A stretch of 64,000 nt of DNA from Gammaproteobacteria bacterium (GTDB lineage: Bacteria > Pseudomonadota > Gammaproteobacteria > GCA-001735895), in the NCBI GenBank assembly GCA_024225395.1, contig JAAEMR010000010.1, positions 91,295-155,294 on the forward strand, written 5' to 3'. Below, one piece after another: positions 30,428 to 39,457 of the stretch (position 1 is its first letter; every line of letters begins with the position of its first letter). The notes beneath the pieces are model-generated. The model searched no databases. It saw only the letters and a list, made by a program, of their open reading frames with translations, and was not told the origin of the DNA. A program made the position numbers and the translations under genes.

Positions 30428-32965
30428 TTACATTGTTTCGCAGTTTGAAGGTAAGTAATTTTTAACTAAATTACTGCTGCATATCCATCGTAAATTGTAG
30501 GCATTTTCTGAACTGGGTAATGTAGGAGATAATTTTAACGATTTATCCTCCCCAAACATGTCGGTTAACTCAATTAAAATGCTGCCATCGTACTCAATGC
30601 TGATGTCTGATACAGTTTTACTACCGCTGTAGTCGGATAAACCTATTTCACTAAGGCTTTCTGGCCACTTTCCATAACTATGATAATACTCTGTAACCAT
30701 CATTTTGATGGGTGTTATTTCAACAAAAGTTTGCCCGAGATGAGCCTTTAAAATGTAAGGGTTAGCGGTGCTTTTTGTATCTTCTTTGTTATCTGTTGAT
30801 GACGAAAAAAGTTTAGAAAAGAAACTCTCCTCCACCTTCTCCTGTAACATTATTTCATCAATAAAACGTGGGTCAGCGAAAAGCACAGATGTTGCATTCT
30901 CTATAGCCTGACCCATTATTATTTTCGGCTTGGCATTTAATAGCCAGCTATCTGAAATACCTTGAGACAGTTTTTCATATAAAATCTGCTGATTTGAATT
31001 ACCGATCAACTGCCATTTTATTTTTATGCTAACGCGATGTCTTTTAAACGAATTAGTGGATATTTTTCTTTTTCCGCCAAATTCAAAGTCTGACTTTATT
31101 GCAGGAGCACAGGAGTCAAACCGGAGTGCCATAATTTCACTGTGCAAGCTATAAGCACCTGTCTTTCTCTTGTTTTTTAACAGATTGTATTGATCCGAAC
31201 GTTTGTGCCTGTAATCCAGACTTTTTAGAATTTTGGAAGCGCTGCCCGCTAACTCCGCGGCTGTAGGATAAAAAGCCGGGTATTCATTTAATGCTTCGGG
31301 CCAGCTTTTTGACTTGATCGTAGAGCAGTTTTCTCCAACAGCATAATAACCCCGGTGTTTAGCTGCTGGTAAATCATTCCAGGTTGTGTTGTTTGTTACT
31401 AATAAAATCTGTTTTACTTCGCCCTTTTCGGGCCGGGCTATAGCTGAACCGGGTTTTAGTTTATTCAAAGGAAACGAATTCATCGCTTCCGTTTTTCTGG
31501 TTTTTTTAGATATTTTTTTGATGAAATGAGCATCAGATAGCAGCTGCCTGGAGGCATTTGTGATTGCTTTTTGCATCACCGCTGAACCTTTTGAATCAAC
31601 CAGCAGGCTTCCCGCGATACCTTCTGTTCTGGTCTGGTACAGTAAAACGCGGTTTCGATCAGTTTTTAGCGACCACTTAACGGTAATCTTCAGCTGTTTT
31701 CGACTTAGCTTGTTCTTCTTAATGTCATTCAGGGTCTTATATTTTGCTGTCGCTGACAGTGACGGAGCACAGATGTTGTAATTTATGCCGACTACCTCGG
31801 CGAATAATGTATAGCCATCACTGTTTTCTATTTCGGATAGTGCATTTTCAGTATTTCTCTGTATCGAATAACCAGCAGACGAAATAGCTTTAACTACACT
31901 ACCTGTGGATTCTGCATTGTTAGCAAAAAACCATTTTTGATTATTTACCGCATCTAGTAATTTCATTGGCTTGTTGGCGGAACACTTTTCACCAAACAGG
32001 AACATACCCACCGTATCTTCGTTTCCCAACCGTCGTGTCCAAACATTTTCATCAACCGTTAAAAACAGTCGATGAGGTTCAGTTTTTCCTGAAAATTTTA
32101 TTGGCTGAGCATTAGTTGATTTATGTGTGACTATGCCTCCGTTATCTTCCTCTACCATAACTTTATGGATAAATTTTTTATCGGAATACAACTTTAAAGT
32201 AGCCGATTCAACGGCATTGGCTAAGGCTATCGATGGGGGATTTTCACTCTGCCAGCCACTAAAGCTACCGTCGGTGGTTTTTTCATAGATCACATCCTGA
32301 TCTCGATTAGATTTTAGTTGCCAGTGAACTTTTAATTTAATGCGATGTTTTTTAAATTGATAGGCTGATATGTTGTTAACCGGTTTGAGACGGTCTCTTT
32401 TTGAAATATGTGGCGCACAGGTATTAAAACTTAAACTGATAATTTCTGAGTGAAGACTTAATCCACCTGAATGCTTTAATTTCCTCAATAAATCATATTT
32501 TGATGAACGATCTGACTCATAGTCCAGGCTGTTAATCACTTTCATCATTCGGCGGCTAAGTTCTGACTCCCTGGGGAAAAAGTCCTTGTGATTAATGTAA
32601 ACATCGGGGACTTTCATTGCGCCTCTTGATGAACAACCTTTCCCTGCATAGTAAGCGCCAATTTTTTTATTTTTACTGGATGCAGATTGTTTTTTCCAGC
32701 TGTAACGAGTGTCCAGTAAAAATACTTTCCGGGCAGTCTGGTCATAAGGTTTTAATATCGCCTTACTGGCACTTTGCTCGACAACAACTTGAGTAACCGA
32801 CTTTGTTAGCGGAACCAGTTTTGTTTTAGACTTATCCGTTGGTTGTTTATCCGAATAATGGACTTTCCCATTTTTATCCACCCATTTAAAAAGTTCGGCT
32901 GGTGAGCTGGTTATAGTTAAATTTAGAGCCAGGAACAGTATTAAGCTTAAGTAATTTGTTTTCAT
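30428..32965 (-). CDS. Secreted DUF4124 protein with three long repeats and a pilin-like C-terminal domain
   Basis: 845 residues. Signal peptide about 1-22; DUF4124 at 23-55 (ELFKWVDKNGKVHYSDKQP). Three repeats follow at about 79-270, 298-485 and 518-706. They share GxYxxGExCS, an LHSEI...FxxCAP segment, a KWQL strand, LYEKxTxG and AIxNAT...FI. Each carries two Cys (C111/C183, C328/C399, C547/C619), perhaps one disulfide per repeat. Residues about 745-843 look like a type IV pilin globular domain (VTEYYHSYGKWPESL, then C829 and C842) without the pilin N-terminal helix or prepilin peptidase site. Exported, probably periplasmic or surface; function unknown. Stands alone, convergent with yicC. 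Confidence 0.8.
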   Translation of the reverse strand: MKTNYLSLILFLALNLTITSSPAELFKWVDKNGKVHYSDKQPTDKSKTKLVPLTKSVTQVVVEQSASKAILKPYDQTARKVFLLDTRYSWKKQSASSKNKKIGAYYAGKGCSSRGAMKVPDVYINHKDFFPRESELSRRMMKVINSLDYESDRSSKYDLLRKLKHSGGLSLHSEIISLSFNTCAPHISKRDRLKPVNNISAYQFKKHRIKLKVHWQLKSNRDQDVIYEKTTDGSFSGWQSENPPSIALANAVESATLKLYSDKKFIHKVMVEEDNGGIVTHKSTNAQPIKFSGKTEPHRLFLTVDENVWTRRLGNEDTVGMFLFGEKCSANKPMKLLDAVNNQKWFFANNAESTGSVVKAISSAGYSIQRNTENALSEIENSDGYTLFAEVVGINYNICAPSLSATAKYKTLNDIKKNKLSRKQLKITVKWSLKTDRNRVLLYQTRTEGIAGSLLVDSKGSAVMQKAITNASRQLLSDAHFIKKISKKTRKTEAMNSFPLNKLKPGSAIARPEKGEVKQILLVTNNTTWNDLPAAKHRGYYAVGENCSTIKSKSWPEALNEYPAFYPTAAELAGSASKILKSLDYRHKRSDQYNLLKNKRKTGAYSLHSEIMALRFDSCAPAIKSDFEFGGKRKISTNSFKRHRVSIKIKWQLIGNSNQQILYEKLSQGISDSWLLNAKPKIIMGQAIENATSVLFADPRFIDEIMLQEKVEESFFSKLFSSSTDNKEDTKSTANPYILKAHLGQTFVEITPIKMMVTEYYHSYGKWPESLSEIGLSDYSGSKTVSDISIEYDGSILIELTDMFGEDKSLKLSPTLPSSENAYNLRWICSSNLVKNYLPSNCETM

Positions 32966-33272
32966 TAACCTTGAAGGTAAGCCTTATAACTCGCAGGTTT
33001 TACTGCATTTTTAAGATAGATTAAAATCAGTATAGTTTATTTTTACCAGATGTCTGTTCATATCCTGACTGCAATACAATACAATATAGGCCTGGTCTTG
33101 CAGTATTAAGAAATCATCTTTGTTGAATCTGGTGTGTTTTTTAATAAACAGAAAAGTAACAGGTGCCTGGTATTGCAAACCTGAGAAAGTTATATTTAGC
33201 TCTTCAATTGAACCCTTTAAGCCAAAAATTAGTGATAGCAGATTTGATGGCAGATTATTAAAAAACCCAGCC
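32966..33272. other. Divergent intergenic region
   Basis: 307 bp between the repeat protein and the EAL gene. I see no RNA gene, repeat or strong promoter. A minus-strand frame at 33011-33274 encodes 87 codons without family features and overlaps the EAL start; not called as a gene. Confidence 0.4.
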
Positions 33273-35483
33273 ATGAAAATAAAAATTCAGCATTATACGT
33301 TATCAATTTTTATGCTGATGAGCTTTTCTGCAGTTTTACTGTGGAGCCTTTCATTACACTTTCTCAATGAATCGTTAGTACAGGAAAAGACCCGCTTATA
33401 CCGCAATAACTGGCAAACACAGCTGGATCAATTGCAGTTGGCCCAGAAACTCTGGTTACAGCAACGCTTTCATGAAGTGGAGATATGGGTTCAGAAAAAT
33501 ACAGATTCCCAGCAACGCCGTCATTTTATTAATCAGTATTACCAGCATTACCCGAGGCTAGAGTTTATTCGGGTTGTTCAACCTGGAGTCAATGTTGGTG
33601 AGCCAGTTAGTGATATTCCAGATTGTCTGATTTTACCGGATACACAGCCTGATGCAGAAACTCCCCCGATTAAAATCTGCTTGTTCAATGAGCAGCTAAT
33701 GATGGCCCTGACTGCTGACATTGGCACGTCAAATCCACAGAAACTGCTTATACTGATGAAGTATTTCAGCTTTGTAGATGATTTTGAGAAGCTAACGGGG
33801 CGTCATTTTTATCAGGAACCTGGAACTGCTGTTAGCCCTGAATTTATTGAAACCAAAGTTCTGAGTGAGCAGTACCAAGCTATTTTTGAGATTAACCAGG
33901 ACGCATTGAGTGTTGGCAGACTCACGCTTTCTATACCCGTAGAAAGCTTTTTATCAATCTGGATGCTGCAGGCTCGCTGGGTTATCCCACTATGGTTACT
34001 GCTTAGTCTGGTTGTCTATTTAAGCTTGTATCGAGCATTGATTCAACCGCTGCTGACTATCACGCAACGAATGAAAAAAATGGTGCTGACAAGACGCCCC
34101 GGTAATTCTTATGACCGGCAATTTTTAACCCCTGGTCTGGTGCTTCTGCATAAATATTTTATGTATTTAACTTACCTGACTAAACATGATCACCTAACTG
34201 GCCTGAATAACCGGGCGATTTTTGATGAGCGACTGCAACAGGCGGTTATGGAAGGTAAAAGATCCGGGCGAAAATATGCACTGGTACTGGTTGATATCAA
34301 TCACTTCTATAAAGTGAATAAAGAATTCGGGAATTACGTGGGTGATGGATTATTAAAGCAGCTGGCTAAGAGGTTAAGTAATGACCTGCGGGAATCTGAT
34401 AGCCTGGCTCGACTGGAAAAAGATAATTTTGCCTTGCTGCTGGAATTTAGAGATGAAGAGGTTGTGACATCACTGGTGGAAAAGCTGCATCAATCACTGT
34501 CTAAAACCTACACCGTTTATGGACGAAAGATCAATATTGGTGTCAGTATCGGCGTGGCTATCTACCCGGATCATGCGCTGGATATGGAAGAACTCGAACT
34601 TAAAGGAAATGAAGCCTTATTAAAGGCTCATCGGGGAGATTGGCCCGTAGTATTTATCCAGCAATCGAGTGTGCAGACAGACTATTCAGGTTTGAGTTTG
34701 ATACAGTCATTACGACTGGCTCTGGATAACAATGATTTCAAACTGGTCTATCAACCGGTGATGGACTTGAAAAACCATAACACCAGTTATTTTGAAGCGC
34801 TTTTACGCTGGAAACAACCGAAAGAACATATTCAGTCAATTGAAAAAACCATAGCGCTCGCTGAAAAAAATCAACTGATCAAACCTTTGTCTCACTGGAT
34901 TATTGAAACAGCCTGTTTACAGTTGAAAAAAATGGAAGATTCTCCGGTGAAAATAGCGATCAACTTATCCATGATCGATTTTCATGATGAGGGTTTACCT
35001 CAGCGTATCAGTAAAATTCTTCAACGTTATGGCGTTGCACCCGGGAAATTCATGATTGAAATCACCGAAGGTCAATTTATGCAGGAGCCCGATCTGGTGA
35101 TAAGTATTTTGAAGCGTTTATCTGAAATGGGAATATCTTTATCCATTGATGATTTTGGGACCGGCCAGGCATCGCTCACTTACTTAAAAAAGCTGCCTGT
35201 GGAAAAACTGAAGATCGATCAGTCCTTCATAAAAAATATGGTTGATGACAATGAAGACAGTACGATCGTAGAAGCAACTATAAAACTGGCTCATACATTG
35301 TGCATCGAAGTTGTAGCAGAAGGTGTTGAATCAGCAGAAATTCATGCCCTGCTGAAACAGATGGGCTGTGATTATGTGCAGGGGTATTACATAAGCAGGC
35401 CATTGGATAAAAACCTGATTCAGGATTGGATGAGAGCTAAAAACAGGCTTTCCGGCACTGAGTTGTCTCATTCAGGTGATTAG
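33273..35483 (+). CDS. c-di-GMP phosphodiesterase: degenerate GGDEF plus EAL, membrane sensor
   Basis: 736 residues from the ATG at 33273. Transmembrane helices at about 9-29 and 234-255 flank a periplasmic sensor region. The GGDEF domain (about 300-465) has EKDNF (382-386) in place of GGDEF, so cyclase activity is not expected. The EAL domain (about 475-725) is intact: FEALLRW (EAL at 508-510), NLS (564-566), EITE, DDFGTG (626-631), K and AEGVE. It probably hydrolyses c-di-GMP, with the dead GGDEF perhaps binding GTP as a regulator. Located two genes from pilU, consistent with motility control. No clear Shine-Dalgarno. Confidence 0.9.
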   Translation: MKIKIQHYTLSIFMLMSFSAVLLWSLSLHFLNESLVQEKTRLYRNNWQTQLDQLQLAQKLWLQQRFHEVEIWVQKNTDSQQRRHFINQYYQHYPRLEFIRVVQPGVNVGEPVSDIPDCLILPDTQPDAETPPIKICLFNEQLMMALTADIGTSNPQKLLILMKYFSFVDDFEKLTGRHFYQEPGTAVSPEFIETKVLSEQYQAIFEINQDALSVGRLTLSIPVESFLSIWMLQARWVIPLWLLLSLVVYLSLYRALIQPLLTITQRMKKMVLTRRPGNSYDRQFLTPGLVLLHKYFMYLTYLTKHDHLTGLNNRAIFDERLQQAVMEGKRSGRKYALVLVDINHFYKVNKEFGNYVGDGLLKQLAKRLSNDLRESDSLARLEKDNFALLLEFRDEEVVTSLVEKLHQSLSKTYTVYGRKINIGVSIGVAIYPDHALDMEELELKGNEALLKAHRGDWPVVFIQQSSVQTDYSGLSLIQSLRLALDNNDFKLVYQPVMDLKNHNTSYFEALLRWKQPKEHIQSIEKTIALAEKNQLIKPLSHWIIETACLQLKKMEDSPVKIAINLSMIDFHDEGLPQRISKILQRYGVAPGKFMIEITEGQFMQEPDLVISILKRLSEMGISLSIDDFGTGQASLTYLKKLPVEKLKIDQSFIKNMVDDNEDSTIVEATIKLAHTLCIEVVAEGVESAEIHALLKQMGCDYVQGYYISRPLDKNLIQDWMRAKNRLSGTELSHSGD

Positions 35484-35774: not shown

Positions 35775-36989
35775 ATGAAAGTCTCCCCTTATCTAAAAGT
35801 TCTGGCTGAAAAAGGTGGTTCTGATCTTTATTTTTCAACCGGTGCGCGCCCCAGTGCTAAATTTAGTGGCATGTTGACCCCGCTGGGTAAAGATCCTGCT
35901 CCTCCCGGTTGGGTGAATACCCTTGCCCAGGAAATCATGAATGATAAACAGCGCCAGGAATTTACTGAAAAGCCGGAAATGAATCTGGCTATGTCAATTC
36001 CCGGCTTAGGACATTTTCGGGTAAATATTTTCAAACAACGAAATGAAGTCTCAATGGTGATTCGTAACATCGTCACAGAATTACCCGATGCTGATGACCT
36101 GGGACTGCCCCAGGTGTTGAAAAACGTGATCATGAATAAACGGGGATTGATTTTGTTTGCGGGCGGTACCGGGTCAGGAAAATCGACTTCTCTGGCTGCT
36201 TTAATCGATTACCGCAATATCAATTCAAAGGGGCATATCATTACAATTGAGGATCCCGTTGAATATATTCACCCGCACAAAGGTTGCATCGTAAACCAGC
36301 GTGAAGTGGGTGTAGATACTGATTCATTTGCAGATGCTTTGAAGAATACCTTGCGCCAGGCACCGGATGTTATTTTAATCGGAGAAATTCGTGATCGGGA
36401 AACCATGGAATATGCCATGGCATTTTCCGAAACAGGACATCTAGCCATTTCTACATTGCATGCCAATAATGCCATTCAGGCACTGGATAGAATTATCAAT
36501 TTCTTTCCAGAAGAACGGCGTTCCCAGTTACTTAATGATTTATCTAATAACTTACAGGCCTTTGTATCGCAACGACTGATTCCAACGGTTGATGGCGGGC
36601 ACTGTGCAGCGGTTGAAGTGTTGCTGAATACGTCCAGAATTGGTGATTTGATCCTCAAAGGTGATATTCAGGAAATCAAGGAAGTGATGGAGAAATCTGA
36701 AAATGCGGGTATGCGCACCTTTGATGCAGCCCTGTTTTACCTGTATCAAGATGGAAAAATTACATTGGAAGAAACACTGAAAAATGCAGATGGTGAGAAG
36801 AATCTGCGTTTACGGATTAATCTGGATAACAAAGGAAAAACAGCGGCGTCAGCGTCAGATTCTGCAGAAGATACCTTTGCAGGACTGAGTTTAATTGAGG
36901 AAGAGGTTGAAGAGGAGGAGCAGGAATCCGAACAGGAACAGGGCCATGTTGTTGTCGGAGGCGCCTCTTTTAATTTGCCGGCTGATTAG
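35775..36989 (+). CDS. pilU: Type IV pilus retraction ATPase PilU-like
   Basis: 404 residues. Secretion ATPase of the PilT/PilU group with GGSDLYFSTGARP at the start, Walker A GGTGSGKST (130-138), Asp box ITIEDPVEYIH, Walker B VILIGEIRDRET and His box HLAISTLHANNA. Sequence style and the acidic C-terminal extension (EEEVEEEEQESEQEQ) fit PilU, an accessory retraction motor acting with PilT at the inner membrane. A near-perfect Shine-Dalgarno AAGGAGG precedes the ATG. pilT is not adjacent, unlike the usual pilTU pair. Confidence 0.9.
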   Translation: MKVSPYLKVLAEKGGSDLYFSTGARPSAKFSGMLTPLGKDPAPPGWVNTLAQEIMNDKQRQEFTEKPEMNLAMSIPGLGHFRVNIFKQRNEVSMVIRNIVTELPDADDLGLPQVLKNVIMNKRGLILFAGGTGSGKSTSLAALIDYRNINSKGHIITIEDPVEYIHPHKGCIVNQREVGVDTDSFADALKNTLRQAPDVILIGEIRDRETMEYAMAFSETGHLAISTLHANNAIQALDRIINFFPEERRSQLLNDLSNNLQAFVSQRLIPTVDGGHCAAVEVLLNTSRIGDLILKGDIQEIKEVMEKSENAGMRTFDAALFYLYQDGKITLEETLKNADGEKNLRLRINLDNKGKTAASASDSAEDTFAGLSLIEEEVEEEEQESEQEQGHVVVGGASFNLPAD

Positions 36990-37136: not shown

Positions 37137-38096
37137 ATGAAATATCAGGATTACTATAAAATTTTAGATGTTGATCGGGGTGCTGATACAGCAACCATCA
37201 AAAAAGCCTACCGTAAATTGGCGCGCAGATATCACCCCGATGTGAATAGCGAAGCCGATGCCGAAGACAAATTTAAAGAAGTTAACGAAGCTTACGATGT
37301 GCTGAAAGATGCCGAAAAGCGTAAAGCTTATGACCAGTTTGGTGAAAACTGGAAACACGGTCAGGATTTCAATACCGGTGGATATGGAGGTGGTGCCGGG
37401 GCTGGTGGATTTACCGGTGGTGATTTTACTGATTTCTTTGAGTCAATTTTTTCGCAGGGTGGAGCTGGAGGTTTTGGTGGTGGCCATGCTGGTGGTGGAT
37501 TCGGGCAAAACCAGGGTTTCAGGCAATCCCGTCGTGCTCAAAAAGGTGAAGACCAGCAGTTGAAACTGGATATCAGTCTCGAAGAGGCTTTTAACGGTGG
37601 TGAAAAAACGATTCAGATATCACGAAGTGAACAGGGAGCCGGAGGCATAGCGACACCTGTATTAAAAAAATTAAAAATCAATATTCCCCGAGGTGTTACC
37701 AGTGGCAAGAAAATTCGCTTATCCAGGCAGGGACATGCTTCCGCTTCGGGTGGTGTGGCTGGAGATCTGTTACTGGAACTAAATATTCTGCCGCATAAAT
37801 GGTTTAAACTTGAAAATAAAGATATAACCTTAAAATGCCCGGTTTCACCCTGGGAAGCGGCACTGGGAAGCAAGGTGAAGGTGCCTACTTTAAGTGGACA
37901 TATTGAACTTAAAATTGCAGCCGGTGTTCAGTCCGGACGAAAAATGAGATTGAAAGGCAGGGGGCTTCCCGGAAAACCGGCGGGTGATTTGTATGTGGAA
38001 ATTCAAATTCATACACCTCCTGCAGATGATAAAGAAACTCAGCAGTGGTATGAATCAATGCAACAAAAATTTGATTTTAATCCGAGAACATTTTAA
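37137..38096 (+). CDS. DnaJ-class co-chaperone (CbpA-like)
   Basis: 319 residues. J domain 1-70 with the HPD motif (YHPDVN), a Gly/Phe-rich linker about 80-130, then two C-terminal substrate-binding beta domains, with no zinc-finger CxxCxGxG repeats. This is the type B/CbpA layout. It stimulates DnaK and may bind curved DNA. The promoter upstream resembles sigma-32 sites. Its TAA overlaps the ATG of the htrA-like protease, giving a coupled stress pair. Confidence 0.92.
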
Positions 38097-39457
38097 TGAT
38101 TTTAAAAGCGCTTCTTTTTACTTTTTTTTTAGTTTTTACAGGGCCTGGTCATGCCGCCTTGCCCGTTGCAGTTGACGGTATCGCACTGCCAAGTCTGGCT
38201 CCAATGCTGGAAAAAATCACACCTGCTGTGGTCAATATTTCTACTCGTGGAAAAGTTTTAGTCAGGAGTTCACTATTGAGTGACCCGCTGTTTAAGCGCT
38301 TTTTCAATATTCCTGATATTCAGAGTGAGAGGGAGATAATGAGCCTGGGTTCCGGGGTTATAGTAGATGCGGCGAATGGTTATATTTTAACCAATAATCA
38401 TGTCATAGAAGGTGCGATAGAAATCACCGTCACGCTGCGTGATGGACGTGAAGTGACTGCAGAAGTTCTAGGGCGGGATCCGGATACGGATATTGCCGTT
38501 ATCAAGATTAATGCGAAACACCTTAAAAGTATCTCCTTTGCAGATTCCAGCCATTTGCGGGTTGGTGATTTTGTAGTAGCCATCGGCAATCCTTTTGGAT
38601 TAGGCCAGACGGTTACATCGGGCATAATTTCTGCACTGGGGCGTTCCGGCCTGGGCATAGAATCGTACGAAGATTTTATTCAAACAGATGCGTCTATCAA
38701 TGTTGGCAATTCGGGTGGGGCACTGGTTAACCTGCGAGGAGAGTTGATCGGCATCAATACTGCCATAATGGGAAGCAGTGACACTAACCAGGGTAGTATC
38801 GGTATAGGTTTTGCCATCCCCATCAATATGGCCAGTGATATTATGTTTCAGTTAATTGAACACGGTGAAGTTAAACGCGGACGACTGGGTGTTAATGCGC
38901 AGGATCTGACGGTGGAGCTGGCTAAAGCGTTTGATATTGAATCTACGCAAGGTGCCGTTGTTACTCAGATAGAGCAGGGCTCACCCGCGCAAAAAGGTGG
39001 GTTGAAGGTCGGTGATGTAATTATCAAGGCAAATGGGCGCAGAGTGAGATCATCGGTGGATATGCATAACCTGGTCGGTTTGATGAGAGTGGGCCAGCAT
39101 ATTCAACTGGAAGTTATTCGCGGCGGACGGGTTATGCTGGTTAAAGTTACCATCCAGCAAATGGAGACGGTGACCGTTGATGGTTCTGAATTCAGTTTTC
39201 GACTAACAGGGGCCAAAATAGGCGAAATCAAAGAGGCTGATATTCGTGAAGGTAAGGTGGAATATTTGCAGGTCATGGATGTGAAACCCGATTCCCAGGC
39301 CTGGAATACAGGGCTGAGGAAAGACGATATAATTTATTCTATCAATAAACAGCTGGTCAAAACTTTTGAACAGGCTTTTGCCGCAACAAAATTAAGCAGA
39401 AGTTTACTGCTTAATATTCAGCGTGGTAACCAGGCCATGTACATTTTAATAAAATAA
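38096..39457 (+). CDS. Periplasmic serine protease, DegP/DegQ (HtrA) family
   Basis: 453 residues. Signal peptide 1-20 (HAA), trypsin-like domain with triad H102 (NNHV), D132 (DTDIAV) and S206 (GNSGGAL), then two PDZ domains (about 255-350 and 370-453). It degrades or refolds misfolded envelope proteins. Start overlaps the dnaJ-like stop (TAATG), so both probably respond to heat through the sigma-32-type promoter. DegP, DegQ or MucD cannot be distinguished from sequence reading alone. Confidence 0.94.

Follow-up and report, generated by a model that had tools for sequence, protein, structure and literature searches.

Our understanding of type IV pilins centres on their N-terminal helix, by which they enter the fibre and which also anchors them in the membrane. 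What, then, might a pilin head do in a protein that has no such helix? The question is raised by a gene in a 64,000-nucleotide stretch of DNA (the window) from a gammaproteobacterium (assembly GCA_024225395.1, contig JAAEMR010000010.1, positions 91,295 to 155,294). From an ATG start, this gene (30428..32965, minus strand) encodes a protein of 845 amino acids (aa) in which the domain of unknown function DUF4124 is followed by three long repeats and a C-terminal pilin-type head. An initial annotation, made from the letters of the window, had recorded the 845-residue open reading frame (ORF) without stating its strand; the plus-strand frame of the interval is riddled with stops, and the coding frame is that of the minus strand, uninterrupted from signal peptide to stop. 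The analysis presented here establishes that this is a real, conserved architecture, with parts of known kinds and with a combination and a soluble head that are new. The initial annotation had already called the combination unfamiliar, and a literature search covering titles and abstract openings found no paper describing a DUF4124-Pilin protein.

Domain layout and the head without a helix

The domains at the two ends, DUF4124 and the pilin-like C-terminal part, had both been named in the initial annotation and pass their Pfam cut-offs of 22 bits. DUF4124 (PF13511) occupies residues 20-59 (32789..32908, minus strand, like all features of the protein; E 2.4e-7, 31.3 bits), and the Pilin model (PF00114) matches residues 741-842 (E 3.9e-10, 41.1 bits), which together with the predicted fold places the head at residues 736-845 (30431..30760). 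At the N-terminus, a hydrophobic stretch and an expected cleavage site, SSPA/ELFKW, indicate a predicted Sec signal peptide at residues 1-23 (32897..32965). Such a stretch, with a site of the form A/[EQD]L[FY][KR]W, can be read in all 25 proteins of the family described below. On the strength of this signal-like N-terminus, the protein is predicted to be carried by Sec into the periplasm.

In predicted structures the head adopts the type IVa pilin fold, and its cysteine pair (C829/C842) is kept across the family. It thus shares with the type IVa pilins PilA and PilE (PF00114) the head fold, the C-terminal cysteine pair and a W-x-C motif, but the prepilin leader, the GFTLIE motif and the hydrophobic N-terminal half of the helix are theirs and not those of the 845-aa protein, in agreement with the earlier description of a pilin-like end with a two-cysteine loop and no prepilin N-terminus. 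None of the 25 fused proteins has a class III leader with a GFTLIE-type motif; each of the 21 PilA loci retrieved has one, in 23 sequences that were themselves extracted by that motif. Nor is there an N-terminal hydrophobic helix in these 25 proteins, where the maximal 19-residue hydropathy after the signal is 0.69-1.34, against 2.92 in the PilA of the genome. The known assembly route uses the helix that is missing here, and the head is therefore not expected to join a fibre in that way. Furthermore, the heads of the DUF4124-pilin proteins form one group apart from the 23 true PilAs in a tree, and two motifs, L-x(2-6)-FG-x2-[KR] and W-x-C-x-[ST]-N, are each found in 25 of 26 heads and in none of the 23 PilAs.

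Between the two ends lie repeats 1 to 3 (R1 to R3), each a unit of about 194 residues. Their borders had first been placed at about 79-270, 298-485 and 518-706, and a hidden Markov model (HMM) gives nearly the same ones: 76-272 (32150..32740), 295-488 (31502..32083) and 515-708 (30842..31423). Pairwise BLASTP identities are 28.6% for R1/R2 (E 4e-30), 33.8% for R1/R3 (E 1e-44) and 28.5% for R2/R3 (E 5e-29), and local alignment of the repeat pairs scores 38-50 standard deviations over 500 shuffles, with the control, R1 against the C-terminal part, at shuffle level. The sequence motifs first proposed for the unit fit repeats 1 and 3 best, whereas repeat 2 has LFAEV...CAP and KWSL in place of LHSEI...CAP and KWQL. 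Each repeat does carry two cysteines as annotated (C111/C183, C328/C399 and C547/C619); these pairs and that of the head are invariant in an alignment of the 12 three-repeat proteins, among them the query. After the signal, all 25 family proteins have exactly two cysteines per repeat and two in the head, for totals of 8, 6 or 4, and from this pairing pattern four disulfides are predicted in the 845-aa protein.

Scans of the repeats against Pfam and NCBIfam gave no match above a curated cut-off, a PHROGs scan gave none at all, and a sequence search of the PDB returned weak pilin matches for the C-terminal part alone (E 0.0076 or worse). Structure prediction had been suggested in the initial annotation. 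In two single-chain AlphaFold2 models the repeats fall into the CsgG/PelC/PqiC/FlgT/TolB-N fold group, and a CsgG/PelC/FlgT/TolB-N-like fold is accordingly predicted for them; no Pfam family of the CsgG/TolB-N/DUF330 group matches at E up to 1. Known members of this group (CsgG, PelC, PqiC (DUF330), LptE, FlgT and the TolB N-domain) differ from the 845-aa protein, which has three tandem copies per chain, two cysteines per copy and no lipid anchor that we could see. The variable linker ahead of the head contains an aromatic motif noticed by eye, SFFSKLFS (residues 714-721, 30803..30826), which may serve for docking or touch the membrane. A similar motif, often GFFSxLxS in the homologues, is readable in the 12 three-repeat proteins (counted by eye) and is absent from three one-repeat proteins (P0023, P0025 and P0026).

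A family with one, two or three repeats

Including the query, 25 proteins with the DUF4124-repeat-pilin architecture were identified, 12 with three repeats, one with two and 12 with one. A protein search with the query returned 11 other full-length three-repeat proteins (38-55% identity, with invariant cysteine and tryptophan residues); HMM counts, made for 2 of the 12, gave three repeats, and the alignment shows this layout in all of them. A search with the single-repeat relatives gave 16 matches, of which 13 have the architecture (by HMM counts, 12 with one repeat and P0018 with two) and 3 have DUF4124 alone in common. Both searches scored the best 7990 candidates by word sharing. Pfam scores for the pilin head are lower in the one-repeat forms: five of the seven proteins scanned exceed the cut-off of 22 bits (P0014, 30.7; P0016, 27.1; P0024, 25.2; P0022, 24.1; P0023, 22.3), and P0020 (21.7) and P0025 (20.8), just under it, were retained on alignment and tree. 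P0018 scores 27 bits, and PF00114 assignments were precomputed for it and for the remaining one-repeat proteins (P0015, P0017, P0019, P0021 and P0026). Source records name P0005 "pilin" and P0015 "DUF4124 domain-containing protein"; thus records of the family exist without a description of its architecture.

Members of the family were found in 11 of the 41 genomes of the order, the window's own included; one of these is a fragment at a contig end and one is a form with no repeat. The latter, a 199-aa protein in genome G007, matches the family profile with E 1.6e-21, scores 22.0 bits for DUF4124 (at the cut-off) and 19.5 bits for the pilin head (below it), has no repeat between them and is a probable zero-repeat relative. 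In a class-wide sample the family is present in at least 1 of 369 genomes (the window's own), a lower bound, since no more than the two top candidates were scored in each genome. Two Cellvibrionales contigs also hold the family, one of them (L039; the other is L040) ending after two repeats. A further relative occurs in the Gamma 3 endosymbiont of Olavius algarvensis.

In a tree of 57 domains, the R2 sequences of the 12 three-repeat proteins come together in a single group (support 97/96), as do their R3 sequences (98/98), and the triplication therefore predates the divergence of the twelve; R1 is not separated from the single repeats. Two one-repeat proteins on contigs under 1.8 kb, P0023 and P0025, are placed among the R1 sequences, which suggests that R2 and R3 were lost later in their lineages, and the Cellvibrionales repeats may tentatively be read as an independent duplication. 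The direction of repeat change is itself tentative, because the tree is midpoint-rooted and contains one long-branch row.

The repeat also has relatives with a different partner. An ORF on another contig (L085, 1252-2742, plus strand) encodes a protein with DUF4124, a single domain resembling the repeat and a trypsin-like protease. Profile comparison of the repeat, another step proposed at the outset, established its homology with the middle domain of this DUF4124-X-Trypsin_2 type (hhalign Prob 98.7, E 1.3e-15), against 0.07 and 0.10 in control comparisons of either domain with the pilin head; the repeat is therefore a module paired with at least two different heads. The two protein types have in common DUF4124 followed by the homologous domain and differ in that the protease form, which has a single copy of the domain in the member examined, ends in a serine protease and not a pilin head. 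We collected 58 relatives of its middle domain (P0030-P0087), 52 of which carry both DUF4124 and Trypsin_2, and in 19 aligned members His 348, Asp 377 and the serine of GNSGG are invariant. The protease family is present in 8 of the 41 genomes of the order (two matches being in pieces or partial), and three genomes hold both the protease and the pilin forms. DUF4124 thereby gains two partners, the protease and the pilin head, whose roles lend themselves to comparison.

Pilin heads were also observed in large proteins of other kinds. One is a 732-aa lipoprotein-like protein (L082, 2031-4229, minus strand) with a C-terminal hydrophobic segment (MIAMTGVVAAIAIPAY) and a pilin head that keeps its helix. 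Another, a 578-aa ORF (L083, 1070-2806, minus strand), has a hydrophobic start, a pilin head (PF00114) and then, by eye, ankyrin-type repeats, and a 497-aa frame whose start lies beyond the contig (L084, 1-1494, plus strand) has hydrophobic segments, a mid-chain pilin head and a further domain.

A possible accessory factor of the pilus, or an envelope module

Tentatively, and with a probability of roughly 0.4, we favour a role in the periplasm as an accessory factor to the type IV pilus of the cell itself. This reading is based on the domain content, on the precedent of TfpC and on the genome, in which PilA and PilM, N, O, P and Q are encoded side by side and a PilT/PilU protein is present; each step from the pilin head to the pilus machine is one that we infer. 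The repeats would act as an arm that disulfides keep stiff and that lies within the envelope close to the pilus machine. The head would dock where pilin heads are usually recognised, whether in the secretin vestibule, at the assembly platform or at the fibre base. Lacking a polymerisation helix, the protein would stay out of the fibre, and its non-polymerising head would hold, cap or tune extension and retraction, in likeness to the role of TfpC on gonococcal pili, itself a DUF4124 protein of unrelated architecture.

To our knowledge, TfpC is the sole DUF4124 member whose function has been worked out. TfpC of Neisseria gonorrhoeae is reported to be needed to keep pili extended, with a loss phenotype that depends on PilT (PMC7593972). 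It has a cleavable export signal, is predicted to be periplasmic with 147 residues in the mature form, and consists of a short transmembrane helix, a proline-rich stretch and a C-terminal coiled coil (PMC7593972). What the two proteins share is DUF4124 and an export signal, the latter recognised in the 845-aa protein by hydropathy and site only. The 845-aa protein is far longer and ends in a pilin-type fold where TfpC has its coiled coil, and the passages on TfpC used here describe neither repeats nor a pilin head.

Several observations weigh against a pilus role. The family is patchily distributed, DUF4124 also occurs in proteins without a known pilus link, among them the serine protease family, which shares the repeat as well, helix-bearing pilin heads occur in other large proteins (L082, L083, L084), and the EAL and PilT/PilU genes adjoining the 845-aa gene are divergent from it. 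The authors of the TfpC study regarded the DUF4124 proteins of P. aeruginosa and V. cholerae as too dissimilar to be orthologues (PMC7593972). PilQ is present in 40 of 40 relatives, 38 of them over the curated cut-off, so that co-occurrence is uninformative on the pilus link. Lastly, BLAST with the genome's own PilMNOPQ and PilA and the window's PilT/PilU protein found none of them among 130 ORFs at 11 homologue loci, a count that includes the focal genes and flanks that in several cases end at contig ends; PilB, PilC, PilD and minor pilins are not known to be in this query set. The only matches there were those of PilR/PilS-region proteins to generic two-component proteins at 23-30% identity. 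A neighbourhood survey for pil genes had been proposed in the initial annotation as a means of linking the protein to pili, and on this result we reject a pilus link by neighbourhood.

An explanation nearly as good as the accessory factor, though we hold it somewhat less probable, is that DUF4124 and the CsgG-like domain form a general envelope-targeting module with interchangeable heads, the pilin head then likely being an independent binder with no pilus role, whose target might be a pseudopilus, DNA, a surface or some further protein of the envelope. The homology of the repeat to the protease middle domain, the size of that family, the genomes that hold both forms, the loci without pil genes and the membrane-bound pilin heads fused to other domains all fit this explanation. 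Against it, the heads stay type IVa in fold and cysteine pair across the family, as those of a freely reused scaffold would not need to, and among DUF4124 proteins one, TfpC, has been tested and is a pilus factor. We consider it unlikely that the protein is a secreted or surface-exposed adhesin, with repeats of the HpaA-type fold presenting the head at the tip for attachment to a surface or host. HpaA (8t8d) and the Helicobacter pylori haemagglutinin homologue 3bgh are indeed among the structure matches of the repeats, the Lsa20 adhesin family of NCBIfam gives a weak sub-threshold match (E 0.0054, 16.5 bits against a cut-off of 150), and the Olavius endosymbiont has a relative. The same fold, however, serves CsgG, PelC, LptE and TolB and so does not in itself point to adhesion, and in all 25 proteins the expected cleavage site is followed by E, Q or D rather than by a lipoprotein cysteine, and no hydrophobic anchor follows the signal. 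That the protein is a defunct minor pilin, in decay or read from a wrong start, is most improbable: the missing prepilin peptidase motif and the patchy distribution would suit it, but the unbroken ORF, the 11 further full-length proteins with their invariant cysteines and tryptophans, and the retention of the fusion with one, two or three repeats speak against decay.

A more specific form of the accessory-factor reading, which we put forward as doubtful, is that the protein is a natural soluble pilin mimic of the periplasm, unable to polymerise, on one to three CsgG-like arms that engages the pilin-recognition site and balances extension and retraction. If true, it would add a third kind of pilin-fold protein to the fibre pilins and pseudopilins. 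The conserved family keeps the head without its helix, much as crystallographers cut it by hand, and mounts it on a modular arm. Should the head touch the pilus machine, it would be a ready soluble probe for pilin-head recognition and for separating extension from retraction, and the natural series of one, two and three repeats, joined by a probable relative with none, lets arm length be varied in tests.

Gene surroundings

The 845-aa gene stands alone, with a convergent yicC-like neighbour on its 3' side and a divergent one on its 5' side. The latter encodes a GGDEF-EAL protein (33120..35483, plus strand) and is followed by the gene for a PilT/PilU family ATPase (35775..36989, plus strand; TIGR01420, 425.8 bits against a cut-off of 319.1), neither being a proven part of the system. 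Both are transcribed away from the 5' end of the 845-aa gene and therefore share no transcript with it. The initial annotation had placed the EAL protein and pilU downstream; its architecture, repeats and pilin head were borne out, its interpretation is supported in part, and the direction that it gave for these neighbours was wrong. A scan found 7 promoter-like sites (7.9 expected by chance) and 2 terminator-like sites (2.6 expected), and no second copy of the gene was found in the genome, where the only match elsewhere is a weak one to residues 10-80.

The flanks of the homologues hold genes for thioredoxin-like, DUF3095, ABC transporter, Na/H exchanger, EAL-HDOD, two-component and DNA polymerase I proteins, together with bioB and a comF-like gene identified by sequence reading alone. 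At one locus (L126, 1758-2960, plus strand) the EAL-HDOD gene overlaps the start of a one-repeat homologue. A connection to cyclic di-GMP through such EAL neighbours, in the window and at this locus, is possible, the two cases being too few to count. Two genes past the PilT/PilU gene, the window also carries a gene for a Do-family (DegP/DegQ-like) serine protease (38096-39457, plus strand).
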